Positions 8,174-33,277 of a DNA stretch of 35,913 nt are shown in pieces. Origin of the DNA: Rhodospirillaceae bacterium (GTDB lineage Bacteria; Pseudomonadota; Alphaproteobacteria; Azospirillales; Azospirillaceae); assembly GCA_029267445.1 (NCBI GenBank), contig JAJUIU010000041.1, positions 1-35,913 of the forward strand. Reading direction: 5' to 3'. The notes under the pieces are model-generated. The model ran no database searches and had not been told where the DNA came from. It was given only the letters and a program-made list of their open reading frames with translations. A program made the translations under genes and the position numbers. How positions within the stretch are numbered: position 1 is the first letter of the stretch; the number at the start of each line of letters is the position of its first letter.

Positions 8174-8944
8174 ATGACCCGCATCACACTGGACGGCAAG
8201 CGCGGCCTCGTCGTCGGCATCGCAAACGGCAGCAGCATCGCCTATGGCTGCGCCCGGGCGTTCCGCGACATGGGGGCGGACATCGCCGTCACCTATCTGA
8301 ACGCCAAGGCGGAACCGCATGTCCGCCCCCTGGCGGAGGGGCTGGGTGCCGACATCGTCGTCCCCTGCGACGTGCGCGAACCGGGACAGCTGGAGGCCGT
8401 GTTCGAGACGATCCGGGAACGCTGGGGCCGGCTCGATTTCCTGCTGCATTCCATCGCCTTCGCCCCGCGTGAGGATCTGCACGGCCGGGTGGTGGACTGC
8501 ACGCGCGACGGGTTCCTGATGGCGATGGACGTCTCCGTCCATTCCTTCATCCGCATGGCCCGGCTGGCGGAGCCGCTGATGACCGACGGCGGCTGCCTCC
8601 AGACGGTCACCTTCTACGGGTCTGAGAAGGTGGTGGAGCATTACAATCTAATGGGCCCGGTGAAGGCCGCGCTGGAGAGCACCGTGCGCTACATGGCCGC
8701 CGAGCTGGGCCGCAAGGGCATCCGGGTGCACGCCCTGTCGCCGGGGCCATTGGCCACGCGCGCCGCCAGCGGCATTGACCGCTTCGACGAGCTGCTGGCC
8801 CGCGCGGCGGACCGCGCGCCGACGCACCAGCTCGTCACCATCGACGATGTCGGCGCCTACGCCGCCTTCCTGGCGAGCGACGCCGCCAGGGCCGTCACGG
8901 GTTCGGTAGAATACATCGACGGCGGCTACAACATCGTGGATTGA
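8174..8944 (+). CDS. Enoyl-ACP reductase FabI-type (SDR family)
   Basis: A 256-residue short-chain dehydrogenase of the FabI type. The cofactor loop GIANGSSIAYG replaces the usual SDR glycine motif, as in FabI; LLHSIAFAP is the family core; and the catalytic pair lies in VVEHYNLMGPVKAALE (Tyr-x6-Lys). It ends DGGYNIVD, the usual FabI C-terminal region. FabI reduces trans-2-enoyl-ACP in the last step of fatty-acid elongation. It is isolated from other fab genes, and differences from housekeeping FabI (for example FYGSEKVVEH) suggest a second paralogue, which is inference. ATG 8174 has GGAGA five bases upstream; an in-frame ATG at 8159 has none. Confidence 0.85.
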   Translation: MTRITLDGKRGLVVGIANGSSIAYGCARAFRDMGADIAVTYLNAKAEPHVRPLAEGLGADIVVPCDVREPGQLEAVFETIRERWGRLDFLLHSIAFAPREDLHGRVVDCTRDGFLMAMDVSVHSFIRMARLAEPLMTDGGCLQTVTFYGSEKVVEHYNLMGPVKAALESTVRYMAAELGRKGIRVHALSPGPLATRAASGIDRFDELLARAADRAPTHQLVTIDDVGAYAAFLASDAARAVTGSVEYIDGGYNIVD

Positions 8945-8950
8945 GGCGGC

Positions 8951-8973
8951 ACCGGCCGGGAGCGCCTGCCGGT
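8951..8973. terminator. Possible bidirectional hairpin between convergent genes
   Basis: ACCGGC (8951-8956) and GCCGGT (8968-8973) can form a 6-bp stem with an 11-base loop between the convergent fabI-type and hutG-type genes. There is no T-run, so this is only a weak terminator candidate. Confidence 0.3.
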
Positions 8974-9797
8974 CATTCCGCCGCGCGGGACCGGCGGCGG
9001 CCGGACTCGGCCATCGCCCAGTCGATCAGCGTGCGCACCAGCATCTCGATCACAGGGCGCACCTCGCCGGCCCGGTCGCTGCGGAACCGGAAGGGTGCCT
9101 CCTCGTCCATGTAGAGGTGGCGCCCGATCTCCAGCTGCACGGCGTGGATGCCCTCGCGCGGACGGCCGTACAGGCGGGTGGAATAGCCGCCCTTGAACCG
9201 GCCGTTCAGCTCGGAGGAGGCGTCGTCGTCCGCCCGCAGCACGTTCAGCAGCCGGCCCGTCAGCCCCTTGTCGGCGGTGGTGCCGTCGGCCGTGCCCAGG
9301 CAGAAGTCGGGAAGCTGCCCCTGGAACAGGCGCGGCACCCGGCTGCGGATGGAGTGCGCCTCGAACAGCACGGCCACGCCATGTCGGGCGCGCAGGGCCT
9401 GCAGCTCGTCCCACAGCTTGGCGTGGTACGGCCGCCAGTATTCGGCGATGCGGCCGGCCATCTCGGCCGCGTCGGGGCCCGCCCCGTCCTGGTACAGCGG
9501 CTGGCCGTCGAAATCCTGCACCGGCACGACGCCCGTGTTCGCCACGTCCTCATAGACGGACCGTCCGTCCGGATCGCGGTTCAGATCGACGACATAGCGG
9601 GAATGGGTGGGCACCAGGAAACCTGTGCCAAGCGCCGGGGCGAAATTGTACAGCCGGTCCAGATGCCAGTCCGTGTCCGGCAGGGTCCGGGCCCGGTCCG
9701 ACATCCGCGCGGCGATCTCCGGCGGCAGATGCGTGCCGCAGTGGGGCATGGACAGCAGCACCGGCGTATCGCCGCGCTGGAACCGCCACAGTTCCAT
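8973..9797 (-). CDS. hutG: N-formylglutamate amidohydrolase (HutG-like)
   Basis: A 274-residue protein of the N-formylglutamate deformylase family, which releases formate and glutamate from formylglutamate at the end of one histidine-degradation route. Visible family features are PVLLSMPHCGTHLPPEIA near the start, DTDWHLDRLYNF, VVDLNRDPDG, LFEAHSIRSRVPRLF and QLEIGRHLYMDE toward the C-terminus, which carry the metal-binding and substrate residues. ATG 9797 is chosen because GGGAGG lies a few bases upstream and it starts at the family position; an ATG at 9836 would add 13 unlikely residues. No hutU, hutH or hutI is nearby, so the gene stands alone here. Confidence 0.9.
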   Translation of the reverse strand: MELWRFQRGDTPVLLSMPHCGTHLPPEIAARMSDRARTLPDTDWHLDRLYNFAPALGTGFLVPTHSRYVVDLNRDPDGRSVYEDVANTGVVPVQDFDGQPLYQDGAGPDAAEMAGRIAEYWRPYHAKLWDELQALRARHGVAVLFEAHSIRSRVPRLFQGQLPDFCLGTADGTTADKGLTGRLLNVLRADDDASSELNGRFKGGYSTRLYGRPREGIHAVQLEIGRHLYMDEEAPFRFRSDRAGEVRPVIEMLVRTLIDWAMAESGRRRSRAAE

Positions 9798-13102: not shown

Positions 13103-14227
13103 CTACGCCGTCAGCAGCTTGGCACCCTTGCCGGCCAGCGGCTCGGCCCCGGCGATCACCACCACCATCTCGTCCGGGTTCACATAGCGCCGGTGCTGCC
13201 GCGACCAGACCAGGCCGGCCGTGGTCGCGGTGCAGGGGTGGCGTGCGCCGGTGAAGGGGTCCAGCACCAGGGCCACCGTCTGGCCGGCGGTGACCGTTTC
13301 CCCCAGCTCCACCGTGAACAGCACCACGCCCGCCACGGGTGCCGTCACCCGGTCCAGGCCGGCCAGCGGGGTCGGCGCGCAGGCGGGCGGGGCGGGCGGC
13401 GGATCGCCCGCCAGCACGCCGCGCACCCGCAGATGGTCCAGGATCGCGGCCGCGTCGGCGGCCCCCTGGGCGTCGTCGATGGCCTCGTAGCCGCGCAGCT
13501 CGATCGTGGTGGCGGCGCAGGCGTCGGGCAGCGGCACCTCCGCCGGCACCAGGGCGCGCAGGCGGGGCCAGAAGCCGGAGCACGCCTCGTCGAACGGCTC
13601 CCCGCCCGAGACGTCCGCCAGGAACGCGGCCGCACAGCCCAGCCGTGCCGCCAGATCGGCGAACCCGTCCCACAGGGCCGGCATGGTGTAGAGATGCATC
13701 AGCGCCTCGCTGTCGCAGTGCAGGTCCAGCACCACGTCGGCGTCCATCGCCAGCGACAGCAGGGTCTTGCGCAGGCTGTCCCCTTCCGTCCGCGTCGGCA
13801 GGGCGGCCAGCGCCTCGGCCAGGGCCGCGCGCACCATGTCCACATTGCCGGACACGTCGGCACCCAGCCGATCCCGCACCCGCTCCGCCACGGCGGGGGC
13901 GAGGTCGGGATAGTCCCGGTTGAAATTGACGCCGGTCGCCAGTTCGAACCGGCCGATGCGCCCGCCCAGCAGGGGTTGATCCATGCCGATCGGGTTGGCC
14001 ACCGGCACCACCGCGATCTCCCCCCGTACGGCACCGGCGGCATCCAGCTCTGCCAGACGGTCGATCAGATGCCGGGCGACCAGAAGGCCCGGCGTCTCGT
14101 CCGCGTGCAGCCCGGCCTGGATGTAGGTCTTGGGCCGCGCCCCCGGCCGGCCGAAGCGGTACAAGGGAAGCACCCGCCGCGTGCCGGGGCGGGTGTGGGC
14201 GAGGGGTAGTTCGTCATGGCGCGTCAT
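13103..14227 (-). CDS. Succinylglutamate desuccinylase/aspartoacylase-family zinc hydrolase
   Basis: A 374-residue M14-like zinc hydrolase. The zinc-binding H-x-x-E lies in YIQAGLHADETPGLL, the catalytic arginine region is VNFNRDYPDL, and the third zinc ligand His is in VVLDLHCDSEALMHLY. A C-terminal beta-rich domain (residues ~295-374, DRVTAPVAGVVLFTVELGET) is typical of AstE/AspA-family proteins annotated as succinylglutamate desuccinylase/aspartoacylase. The reaction is cleavage of an N-acyl or peptide-like bond; no ast operon genes are near, so arginine succinylation is not supported. ATG 14227 is followed by MTRHDELPL; the upstream extension in the same frame lacks protein-like composition. 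Confidence 0.85.
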   Translation of the reverse strand: MTRHDELPLAHTRPGTRRVLPLYRFGRPGARPKTYIQAGLHADETPGLLVARHLIDRLAELDAAGAVRGEIAVVPVANPIGMDQPLLGGRIGRFELATGVNFNRDYPDLAPAVAERVRDRLGADVSGNVDMVRAALAEALAALPTRTEGDSLRKTLLSLAMDADVVLDLHCDSEALMHLYTMPALWDGFADLAARLGCAAAFLADVSGGEPFDEACSGFWPRLRALVPAEVPLPDACAATTIELRGYEAIDDAQGAADAAAILDHLRVRGVLAGDPPPAPPACAPTPLAGLDRVTAPVAGVVLFTVELGETVTAGQTVALVLDPFTGARHPCTATTAGLVWSRQHRRYVNPDEMVVVIAGAEPLAGKGAKLLTA

Positions 14228-14656
14228 GCCGCCGATGATGCACAGCCCGCCGCCGCCGTCCAGGGCCGGGCGGATCGTCCGTCGGCCCGCACACTTCAAT
14301 CCACTTTCAAGCGCCGCGTGTTCCGGATATGTTCTCGTTCTCATGGGCTCCGTCGGGCCCACGGATCTTGGACTCGTGAATAGCGCCGCGCATCGCCCCG
14401 TTCCGAAGGGGGCGGTCGGTGCATGGCCGCACGCTGGCGGGGCGATCCCGCACGAATGATGTCACCTTTGTCACCTTAGAGGGCGTAAGTGACTGGAATC
14501 CCTCGATTCCCATGTCACCTTTGATGTCACCTTAGATGTCGCCTTTGTCACCTTAGATGTCACCTTTGTCACCTTAGATGTCACCTTAGAGGCGCCGGCC
14601 CCGCTGGGCGCGGGGGCCCGGCCGTGTCATGCTCCGTCGGCACGTCCTGGTGGAAC
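14228..14656. other. Intergenic region between divergent genes
   Basis: No protein-coding or RNA gene is convincing in these 429 bases. The left part, to about 14455, is ordinary high-GC sequence that must hold the divergent promoters. The right part holds the TGTCACCTT array described separately. Confidence 0.6.
14458..14590. repeat. Array of nine TGTCACCTT 9-mers
   Basis: The 9-mer TGTCACCTT begins at 14460, 14469, 14513, 14525, 14537 (one-base variant TGTCGCCTT), 14546, 14558, 14567 and 14579. Two adjacent 9-mers flanked by GA and A make a 21-bp unit, present at 14458-14478, 14535-14555 and 14556-14576, with a half unit after that. A 35-base spacer (14478-14512) with GGAATCCCTCGATTCC interrupts it; this holds the inverted repeat GGAATC/GATTCC. 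The array is more AT-rich than its surroundings and is placed before the polysaccharide genes. It could be a multi-site operator, a slippage-prone microsatellite or a family of dispersed repeats. Confidence 0.85.
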
Positions 14657-15895
14657 ATGGTCCGGACCCACTCGCCCACGCTCGCCCTGCCGCTGCGGAC
14701 CGCCCTGGCGCCCATCCGTCTGGCGGCCCTGGCGCTCGCGTTGCTGGCCTATGGGCTGTTCAGCGCCCCGGCGCCGCCGGGCATCGGCACGGCGGAACTC
14801 GCCATCGCCCTGGCCGGACTGGCCGCCGTCGGCGTCAGCCGCCCGCTGTCGCTGCTTGCGGGACAGACCCTGACGGCACCCGACCGGTTCGAGGCGTTTG
14901 GCGCCACCGCCTTCCTGCTCCTGCTCTGGCCGCCGCTCGTCGTCGGCATGCTGGCGGGGGCGGGGATGGCGGACATCGTGCGGGACGTCCTGCCCCTCGG
15001 CTTCCTGTTCCTGCCGCTGCTCCTGCACCGCTCGATCCTGGCCCTGCCGGCGCGCGCGGTCGATCTCCTCGCCCATGCCCTCGCCCTGGCCGGCGTCGGG
15101 TTCGCCCTGCGATGGTGGATCGACGGCGGCGGCACCATCCAGGGCATCGGGCGTGCGGCCCACGGGGACGGGGACCTTTACCTGCTCAACAGCGCGGCCG
15201 TGTCCTTCGCCGCCGTCTGGCTGGTGCTGGTCGGCGTGCCGTTGCTGCGGCGCGGGGTCTTGGCCGCCGCGCTCGGTCTCGCCCTCCTGGCGGGAAGTGC
15301 GGTCTGTCTCGCCGCGTTGGTCGCCGCCGTCCATCGTGGTGCCGTCGCCCTGACGGGGGCCGCCCTGCTCGTCGCCGGCCTGCATTGGGCGGCGCGCCGC
15401 CCGGCCCGACTGCTGGCGGTCGGCGCCCTGGCCCTGGCGGCGATGCTGGCCTGGGGTGCGTCGATGGACGGCGCGCTGGGGCTGCTGCTCGCCAAGACGG
15501 ACGCGGTCGGCCTCAACCTGCGTGGGCCTGAGTTCCTCGCCGTCCTGCGTCAGGTGACCGCGTCGCCCCAGGCCTTCCTGTTCGGGCAGGGGTGGGGTGC
15601 CCTGCTGGCGAACCCCGCCGTCGGCGGCCTCCAGGTCTCCTATACGCACAGCGCCCTGGGGTACGCCCTGCTGAAGGGCGGCGTTCTGGGGGTGGCCGCG
15701 CTGCTCCTCTATCTCACGGCCTTCCTGCCGATCCTGCGCCGGGCGGTTCGGGCCCGGCCGGACATCGTCCTGGCCTGCGCACCGCCGCTGCTGTCCGGCC
15801 TCCTGCTGCACACAAGCTACAAGTATCTGTGCTTCGGCATATGCCTGAGCATGCTGCTGATGGGTGCGGGGGCGGTGGCTAGGCGCACAAGTTGA
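14657..15895 (+). CDS. O-antigen ligase / Wzy polymerase-like membrane protein
   Basis: A roughly 412-residue integral membrane protein with about ten to twelve hydrophobic helices, many Leu/Ala-rich (for example LAALALALLAYGLFSA and AFLLLLWPPLVVGMLAGAGM). A large periplasmic-type loop carrying GQGWGALLANPAVGG and VSYTHSALGYALLKGG is placed as in O-antigen ligase/Wzy proteins, where a late loop with charged and aromatic residues is functional. It would join or polymerise lipid-linked repeat units in the periplasm. Assignment rests on topology and on glycosyltransferase and Wzz-like neighbours rather than on a strict motif. The start is uncertain: ATG 14657 follows GGTGG; GTG 14624 would add 11 residues. 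Confidence 0.72.
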   Translation: MVRTHSPTLALPLRTALAPIRLAALALALLAYGLFSAPAPPGIGTAELAIALAGLAAVGVSRPLSLLAGQTLTAPDRFEAFGATAFLLLLWPPLVVGMLAGAGMADIVRDVLPLGFLFLPLLLHRSILALPARAVDLLAHALALAGVGFALRWWIDGGGTIQGIGRAAHGDGDLYLLNSAAVSFAAVWLVLVGVPLLRRGVLAAALGLALLAGSAVCLAALVAAVHRGAVALTGAALLVAGLHWAARRPARLLAVGALALAAMLAWGASMDGALGLLLAKTDAVGLNLRGPEFLAVLRQVTASPQAFLFGQGWGALLANPAVGGLQVSYTHSALGYALLKGGVLGVAALLLYLTAFLPILRRAVRARPDIVLACAPPLLSGLLLHTSYKYLCFGICLSMLLMGAGAVARRTS

Positions 15896-31972: not shown

Positions 31973-33277
31973 TCAGTCGTCGTCCTCGTCATCGTCCGCG
32001 CGCGGCAGCACCGTCCGGATGATGATCGCGTCATCCATCAGCGCGCCGCGCACATTGGCGTCGAACAGGTTGGCCTCGGTCAGGTCGGCCTGCCGAAGGT
32101 CGGCGCCCGACAGGTTCGCGTTGCGGAGCTTTGCGCGGACAAGGCTCGCCTTCAACAGTTTGACGCCGCTGAGATTGGCCGGCCACAGGCGGCCTGTGGG
32201 CTTCCCGTCGGGGCCCTTGATGTCGACGGAGCCGACCTCCGCCCCGTCCAGCCTGGCGCCCGACAGGTCGGCGCCGCGCAGATTGATCCCGTCCAGGGTG
32301 GAGCCGGTCAGGTCGGCGTTCTGCAGATTGGCGCCGGCGAGATCGGACATGATCATCTGGCACTCGCGCAGCTTCGCGCCGACCAGCAGCGCCCGCTTCA
32401 GGTTGGCGCCGCTCAGGTTCACCTTGTTCAGGTCGATGTGTGACAGGTCCTCGCCCTCCAGATCCGCCCGGACGCCCTTGGCGCCGTTGGAGTTGATCCA
32501 GACGTAATGGGCCTGGAGCGTGTCCTGTATCTTCTGCGAGAAATTGTCGGCCGTGCGGACGAGGTTGGCGCCACTGATGTCCGCGCTGGACAGGTCGACG
32601 CCCTCCAGATTGGCGCCCACAAGGTCGGCGTTCCGCAGGTTGGCGCCCATCAGGTTGGCGCCCATCAGATTCGTGTCGCGCAGTTTGGCGCCCTGCATGT
32701 TGCAGTTGGCGAGGTTCACGCCCCGCATGTCGCAGCGGCTGAGGTTCGCGTTCTTCATGGTGGAATTCGCGAAGTTGCAGCCCGCGAACTGCGCGCCCTC
32801 GCAGTCCGCACCCGACATGCTCGTCTCGCTGAGGTCGGCGCCTGACAGGTTGGCGCTGCCCAGCCGCGCCTCGTCCATGTCCGCGCCGGTCAGGTCGGCC
32901 TGTTGCACGCTGACGGCGCCTGGGCTGCGCCGGTCCAGCAGCGCCCCGCCGCGAAGGTCGGCCTCGCGCAGGATGGCGCCCTTGAGTTTGGCGCCGCGCA
33001 GATGCGCGCCACGCAGATCCGCCTTGGTCAGATTGCAGTTGGTCAGGATCGCCCGCGACAGCCGGACCGCGAACAGGTCCGCCATGCTGAGGTCGGCGCC
33101 GCTGAAGTCGCAGTCTGACAGGTTGGCGCCGGACAGCTTGGCCGACTGCAGGTTCGCGGCGACGAAGTTGTGGCCCTGCAGGTCAGCCAGCGGCAGCATG
33201 GCCCGCGCCCCGTTGGTCAGCTTCTTCAGCCAGCGCTCGTGCTTCTGAAGGACGGCGATCAGGTCGTGCGGGGTCAT
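31973..33277 (-). CDS. Large pentapeptide-repeat protein
   Basis: A 434-residue protein. After an N-terminal helical cap (MTPHDLIAVLQKHERWLKKL) it has two blocks of A(D/N)LXX pentapeptide repeats, residues ~40-255 and ~300-415, as in LSGANLSDCDFSGADLSMAD and TLDGINLRGADLSGARLDGA. The blocks are separated by a non-repeat linker, QKIQDTLQAHYVWINSNGAK, and the tail is strongly acidic (RADDDEDDD). Such repeats form a right-handed quadrilateral beta-helix. Some relatives (Qnr, MfpA) mimic DNA and protect gyrase; most have no known role. Several cysteines lie at the repeat's second position. Start chosen at ATG 33277, where repeats begin soon after. Confidence 0.9.
   Translation of the reverse strand: MTPHDLIAVLQKHERWLKKLTNGARAMLPLADLQGHNFVAANLQSAKLSGANLSDCDFSGADLSMADLFAVRLSRAILTNCNLTKADLRGAHLRGAKLKGAILREADLRGGALLDRRSPGAVSVQQADLTGADMDEARLGSANLSGADLSETSMSGADCEGAQFAGCNFANSTMKNANLSRCDMRGVNLANCNMQGAKLRDTNLMGANLMGANLRNADLVGANLEGVDLSSADISGANLVRTADNFSQKIQDTLQAHYVWINSNGAKGVRADLEGEDLSHIDLNKVNLSGANLKRALLVGAKLRECQMIMSDLAGANLQNADLTGSTLDGINLRGADLSGARLDGAEVGSVDIKGPDGKPTGRLWPANLSGVKLLKASLVRAKLRNANLSGADLRQADLTEANLFDANVRGALMDDAIIIRTVLPRADDDEDDD

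Follow-up and report, generated by a model that had tools for sequence, protein, structure and literature searches.

A run of short direct repeats lies ahead of polysaccharide genes in a 35,913-nucleotide stretch of DNA (the window) from the draft genome of a Rhodospirillaceae bacterium (G000; 4.23 Mb, 174 contigs), and it raises the question of whether these repeats serve the adjacent genes or belong to something larger. The original prediction described nine 9-mers and offered a multi-site operator, a phase-variable microsatellite or a genome-wide repeat family as explanations. The nine TGTCACCTT sites are confirmed here within 14460-14587 (starts at 14460, 14469, 14513, 14525, 14537, 14546, 14558, 14567 and 14579), eight of them being exact and the one at 14537 reading TGTCGCCTT. 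The whole window holds 16 matches with at most one mismatch, far above the mean of 3.0 (sd 1.45, maximum 7) obtained in 100 dinucleotide shuffles of the whole window. The predicted arrangement in 21-bp paired units describes part of the array but not the rest, the site-to-site spacing being 9, 44, 12, 12, 9, 12, 9 and 12 bp. The longer repeats and unique spacers of a CRISPR-type array were not found in the window array, whose sites are contiguous and 9-12 bp. The features of the element are collected in Table 1.

Table 1. Features of the element in the window
Feature	Position	Strand	Description
Possible boxB-like hairpin	14341..14364	+	Directly before boxA
boxA-like GGATCTTGGACTCGTGAA	14363..14380	+	98 bp before the array; 18.5 bits with a matrix trained on another genus (36 G027 and G032 elements), reached by 0 of 500 shuffles
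First site pair	14460..14480	+	Two TGTCACCTT sites 9 bp apart, plus AGA; pair present in nine of nine genomic copies
35-base spacer	14478..14512	+	Inverted repeat inside, not conserved
Main array, seven sites	14513..14590	+	Spacing 12, 12, 9, 12, 9 and 12 bp; in helical phase with the pair

Copies in the source genome and in its relatives

A search of G000 with the 21-bp unit gave 28 matches with at most three mismatches and none for the reversed control. They form nine loci (C1, C28, C50, C52, C59, C74, C106, which is that of the window, C134 and C150), all presenting the pair, the spacer and the main array, so that the predicted genome-wide repeat family is borne out. Site positions 0, 9, 53, 65, 77, 86, 98, 107 and 119 are common to eight of the nine copies (at most one mismatch per site), two of these eight carrying one further site match, while the sites of the C1 copy deviate from the others by 1-13 bp. 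That eight copies in one genome have identical positions for the nine sites speaks against a phase-variable microsatellite. The inverted repeat predicted in the spacer does exist in the window (a perfect 6-bp GGAATC/GATTCC), but an arm of at least 6 bp was found in just two of the nine copies, so that it is not a family feature.

The sequence flanking the arrays differs between copies. In the window, an unassigned reading frame and then two glycosyltransferase genes follow; the neighbours of the other copies encode a DUF2383 protein (below the Pfam cut-off), an acyl-CoA thioesterase, an EF-hand protein, an esterase, an NAD-glutamate dehydrogenase, a DUF808 protein and a TPR-methyltransferase (the end of contig C150 is too near its array for a neighbour to be read). 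Since the other copies lie beside unrelated genes, the polysaccharide genes are only one of many neighbours. On our reading, the downstream gene has the direction of the element in five of eight copies and is convergent in three, tallies that are approximate because genes were called with a simple GC3 script; the five same-direction cases disfavour a mere terminator separating convergent genes. The window itself would agree with a local multi-site operator of the polysaccharide operon, as the next frame has the same direction there, with its first possible start 34 bp past the array and the glycosyltransferase genes behind it. Because the genes behind the other copies are unrelated, and several of these genes are convergent, we regard such an operator as very improbable. 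What stands of that proposal is a multi-site protein platform, which the helically phased sites fit, with no link to polysaccharide genes. With regard to an iteron origin, no replication-initiator family was found among the 10 proteins of the window and 10 proteins beside the seven other copies outside C150.

Among 99 genomes (G000 and 98 relatives), five contained matches, and only G000, G027 and G032 contained more than two. G000 was the sole member of its genus in the genome sets searched. An 18-bp pair pattern applied to 82 genomes of the family gave 38 matches in G027, 18 in G032 and 28 in G000, plus one or two isolated matches in each of four others (G101, G041, G022 and G034). Both G027 and G032 belong to the Niveispirillum clade of the family Azospirillaceae, and diverged copies are abundant in them. 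The 45 arrays that we read in these two genomes (L121-L137, L139-L164, L166 and L167) have the element order of G000, with a longer spacer, extra inverted sites and a spelling that is mostly GTCNCCTTAAG. In three G027 copies (L167, L169 and L177), most sites, the inverted ones included, are respelled GTAAAGTTAAG or alike and the promoter motif and boxA are retained; this subfamily looks like a second binding specificity within one genome. Of 28 G027 copies, 20 face a convergent next gene, which in 15 of the 20 ends 110-145 bp past the first site, at the far end of the array; in G032 such a gene follows 10 of 17 copies (three without a call). Nothing convincing was found in 385 sampled genomes of the class, in plasmid and phage collections or in IMG/VR, the last yielding no exact match. 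Pattern matches were present in 11 other genomes of that class sample, and a contig pattern scan gave 22 matches, the one that was read (L057) being a repeat inside a reading frame. A phage or plasmid origin was rejected, the searches having returned just a 39-bp plasmid match and matches in tail and structural genes of Lactobacillus phages.

Two local situations were also observed. One G027 element (L162, contig C270) lies directly behind the groEL terminator, and six groEL 3' flanks examined from other genomes of that genus carried no element. In G032, insertion sequence ends starting TGGACTGC.CCCC are inside or adjoin five elements (L168, L174, L180, L184 and L138), and in L176 the leader is followed by what was judged by eye to be an IS1595-like transposase gene; the arrays may be insertion hot spots.

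The leader upstream of the arrays

Upstream of most arrays we found, in this order, the promoter motif TGGACAAAATTCCTAT, a hairpin of variable sequence and GGGTCTTGGACATGTGAA, a boxA. The array begins mostly about 40-145 bp after this leader and has around nine direct sites on one helix face. The motif matrices were trained on G027 and G032 elements chosen by a looser motif search and by a strict promoter-to-boxA pattern, the latter occurring 20 times, always in G027 or G032, with none in the other 80 family genomes (G000 included) and none in the control. A promoter or a boxA was scored within 260 bp of 39 of the 45 G027 and G032 arrays, the six others being L121, L123, L131, L133, L156 and L161. 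In G000, six of the nine arrays, that of the window included, have a boxA within 200 bp upstream (p <= 0.012, 500 shuffles each); the promoter matrix found its motif at six of the nine, and the window copy displayed no recognisable one (p 0.288). The C1 copy, scored as a miss, carries the full module 436 bp upstream, and the other sequence lying between leader and array (L083, about 8930-9365) contains an apparent palindromic intergenic repeat of the CTCGCCCTTCGACAAGCTCAGGGTGAGG type. The hairpin before boxA reached p <= 0.05 against shuffles in 19 of 40 copies, with a mean z of -1.66 (the L146 module was too short for this test and was dropped), whereas the fold of the window copy (14332-14365, -12.0 kcal/mol, z -1.24, p 0.12) is not significant alone.

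The boxA was compared with those of rRNA operons. Two G032 rRNA leaders identified by 16S matches (L069 and L075) carry GGTTCTTGGACAAGTGAA about 200 bp before 16S; including a third G032 leader (L072) and one from G027 (L070), both recognised by eye, the element boxA matrix scores the four boxes 22.7-23.1 bits. The window boxA is identical in 16 of 18 bases to the box before the G027 16S, GGATCTTGGACAAGTGAA, the start of that 16S having been recognised by eye. Judged by its sequence, the leader region upstream of the array contains an rrn-type boxA. The rRNA genes that such a leader would drive were not found, there being no Rfam match at 13800-15000 of the window and no 16S rRNA in G000, though this genome is rated 100% complete; for the same reason, the boxA of G000 elements has no rrn counterpart from its own genome to be compared with. 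The element is like an rrn leader (boxB-boxA, Nus antitermination) in having a promoter, a hairpin and a boxA that matches the rrn boxes of relatives, but it differs in presenting a site array where rrn has rRNA. The available parts of PMC5725501 and PMC7862264 indicate that boxA is known outside rRNA, from suhB leaders and CRISPR leaders.

An orphan HTH family and the reading of the sites

Two of the six arrays with no scored leader, L156 in G027 and L131 in G032, are at the 3' end of homologous genes encoding a helix-turn-helix (HTH) protein, with the stop codons inside the array. On our reading, L121 and L133 adjoin insertion-sequence ends, and no HTH gene was found alongside L123 and L161. 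This HTH gene is the sole called neighbour common to different genomes. Its product P0001 has 395 aa (459 aa in the G032 homologue) and contains a resolvase/homeodomain-like HTH, with no recognised catalytic domain. A model built from the G027 and G032 proteins, whose own scores are high by construction, was run on the 82 genomes: G000 came best after the sources (C153, 80.9 bits; C20, 49.8 bits), all remaining genomes gave at most 37.2 bits, and 33 of the 82 had some match at E <= 0.01. In all genomes other than the two sources, G000 included, the matches are confined to the later stretch of the model, which bears the HTH. The C153 gene (57535-58151) reaches the end of its contig, so that any array behind it is out of view, and the 340 bp examined at the end of the C20 gene contained no phased cluster. 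No relatives of the protein were found in phages or in IMG/VR; one of seven family members gave a weak match to phrog_7344 (terminase, E 0.0019), and the two weak matches in PDB included no terminase.

According to the promoter matrix, the HTH genes carry the promoter motif 53-57 bp before their starts (C20, 21.3 bits, and G032, 10.5 bits, 0/500 shuffles each; G027, 11.2 bits, p 0.022; C153, 8.3 bits, p 0.028), and boxA is absent at all four. In stretches chosen around elements, 166 kb of G000 gave eight promoter matches of at least 12 bits, namely seven array elements and the C20 HTH gene, and 90 kb of G027 gave nine, all but one being elements; no match at 13 bits was found in 200 kb of A. 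lipoferum plasmids. Among Azospirillum HTH genes, at least 12 bits was reached in six of nine and at least 16.8 bits in five of nine in a first set, two genes of which had a misplaced start. In a second set just five of 17 reached at least 12 bits, so that the motif is common to part of the HTH family only.

The Azospirillum genes also carry sites after the stop codon, spelled GTTTCA, GTTCCA or GTTCAC and not GTCACCTT. A direct pair 9 or 10 bp apart was found within 100 bp of the stop in 23 of 25 genes (orthologues included, hence not 25 independent events, and L324 and L340, with identical 3' flanks, may be one gene counted twice) versus one of 3880 control windows, all taken from A. lipoferum plasmids. 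An inverted site is present in 20 of the 25; it precedes the first direct site by 20-22 bp in 14 genes and by 29 bp in four, distances near the 22 and 31 bp of G027 arrays. The HTH and site expressions behind these counts were written after viewing some of the same flanks. On the basis of co-location, co-occurrence and promoter similarity, the array sites are probably the targets of the P0001 HTH family. On two Azospirillum plasmids, the HTH genes (L333 and L334) have a replication initiation gene about 2.1 and 1.3 kb away, and their 3' sites, GTTTCAC/GTTCCAC, resemble half a parS site.

The same family bears on whether the elements could be mobile-element ends or non-autonomous copies, with sites that bind a recombinase or transposase and the HTH unit as parent. 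The elements are dispersed, G000 having nine copies and G027 and G032 showing dozens of matches, and they are restricted to three of 82 family genomes; their only shared neighbour is the HTH gene. Moreover, of the eight further copies of the Azospirillum HTH unit, five start to match at nearly one base (query positions 106-116 of 551) and three start at 144, 187 and 204. However, the HTH protein is devoid of a recognised catalytic domain, no terminal inverted repeats or target duplications were seen by eye, and the comparison of related genomes gave no second boundary and no near relative with an empty site. In addition, the Azospirillum HTH loci retain the same neighbours in several species, and the copies share motifs but not intervening sequence, as expected of a selected function and not of recent copying. 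A mobile origin of this kind thus seems to us rather unlikely.

The array might instead work as RNA: it could load Rho, serve as an anti-Shine-Dalgarno sponge or form a structured non-coding RNA. In favour of this, the array probably belongs to an untranslated transcript that has boxA, the sites of G000 are rich in C and uniformly oriented, and UCACCUU of the array RNA resembles the 16S 3' end. Against this, site distances of 30 bp or more are most coherent at 10.75 bp in both G000 and G032 and at 10.5 bp in G027, and the main array mostly follows the pair at 44, 53 or 64-67 bp across the three genomes, which means that the spacer has changed by roughly whole helical turns. Inverted copies occur in G027 and G032, no Rfam match was found, and the GTAAAGTTAAG-site subfamily is neither C-rich nor anti-SD. 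RNAalifold gave just -1.2 kcal/mol on 28 G027 copies, and overall covariation was absent in the two inverted-site helices of these copies (83.7% of cells paired, versus 83.3% in shuffles). Six pairs showed one double change, a number reached in eight of 500 shuffles, and on our reading all of these are in the respelled L167. That pattern, like the matching respelling of inverted and direct sites in the three G027 copies, fits base pairing, and a changed protein specificity explains the L167 pattern equally. Hairpins formed by the inverted arms were rejected as the middle base of GTCNCC showed no covariation (first inverted pair, 28 copies: T/A 10, A/A 8, T/T 6, T/G 3, A/G 1), and neither the 28 G027 copies nor the nine G000 spacers contain a conserved hairpin of REP/BIME type. 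Taken together, an RNA function appears improbable and, since the phase is kept across differing spacers and RNA covariation is lacking in the G027 copies, the sites are most likely read on DNA. Repeated mini-ORFs (ATG TCA CCT TTG TCA CCT TAG, MSPLSP-stop) were also considered and discarded, as the 10- and 11-bp spacings of G027 and G032 break the frame.

A proposed unit and its counterparts in other systems

We lean, with little more than even confidence, towards the window array being one of at least nine dispersed and probably non-coding units, in which an rRNA-like leader runs into phased sites that are read by an HTH protein and form the 3' boundary. The best reading of the array is that of a 3' site cluster in the non-coding, antiterminated counterpart of the transcription unit of the HTH gene. 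RNA polymerase would start at the promoter motif upstream of boxA, and Nus factors acting at boxA would make it Rho-resistant, as would be needed because the RNA is untranslated, so that it would run into the array. There, the orphan P0001-family protein would read the sites on DNA, and the protein-covered array would most likely act as the 3' boundary of the unit, either as a roadblock or as an insulator, this being the least secure step. A likely consequence is that the array would titrate or autoregulate the HTH protein.

As read from the sequences, the design common to the two kinds of unit would be a transcribed stretch with phased sites at its 3' end and often one class of promoter. The coding units (the four HTH genes) are without boxA, which would follow from their being translated, and the non-coding units usually have it. 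According to the available part of PMC5725501, Nus complexes at boxA prevent Rho-dependent termination, and this fits polymerases reaching the site cluster in both unit types. A more far-reaching proposal, which we hold possible but doubtful, is that of an undescribed system in which an orphan HTH family marks 3' ends with phased arrays (an inverted site, then direct sites), a non-coding form, with an rRNA-type boxA leader in place of the coding region, having multiplied in three genomes. Antiterminated polymerases would then enter protein-covered DNA, and the array would be a protein-dependent terminator or domain boundary, with a logic like that of TTF-I arrays. No description of the element was found in the literature searched, which covered few subscription journals.

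Several known systems share part of these features. CRISPR arrays led by boxA (Stringer et al., as cited in PMC7862264) have their repeats downstream of boxA in a transcript that is non-coding, the distance to the first repeat being 58 or 90 bp in the constructs of PMC7862264 itself; unlike those, the element has contiguous repeats of 9-12 bp, with no unique spacers, that are apparently read on DNA. The HTH rings of small terminases and their pac sites, as presented in the accessible text of PMC4737164, also combine an HTH protein with direct repeats beside its own gene, but no phage relative was found for the HTH family of the element, and its terminase match is weak and limited to one of seven members. 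The TAACTGA repeats of Beggiatoaceae are likewise short direct repeats scattered through intergenic regions, with neighbouring genes that are functionally unrelated; however, their 7-bp unit lies mostly just before start codons, a translational role has been proposed for them, and the portion available of PMC4679880 mentions no leader or cognate HTH gene. At the 3' ends of eukaryotic rDNA, TTF-I/Sal box arrays provide several protein sites. The element may be likened to them, by analogy, in that rRNA-type transcription would have several protein sites at its 3' end, but there is no homology and its role in termination is inferred.

If the proposed unit is correct, rRNA-type antitermination would be linked to units that are neither rRNA nor CRISPR and are dispersed over the chromosome. 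A DNA target would also be assigned to a multi-copy HTH family that is labelled as no more than hypothetical in the annotated Azospirillum plasmid records examined. What looked like an ordinary microsatellite belongs to a coherent family in which a leader, an array of phased sites and a probable cognate protein go together, and the elements would offer a natural system for the behaviour of Nus-modified RNA polymerase at arrays of bound protein.

Elsewhere in the window, several repeats with a 15-bp period (32055-33022) overlap long minus-strand reading frames, which suggests a pentapeptide-repeat protein.
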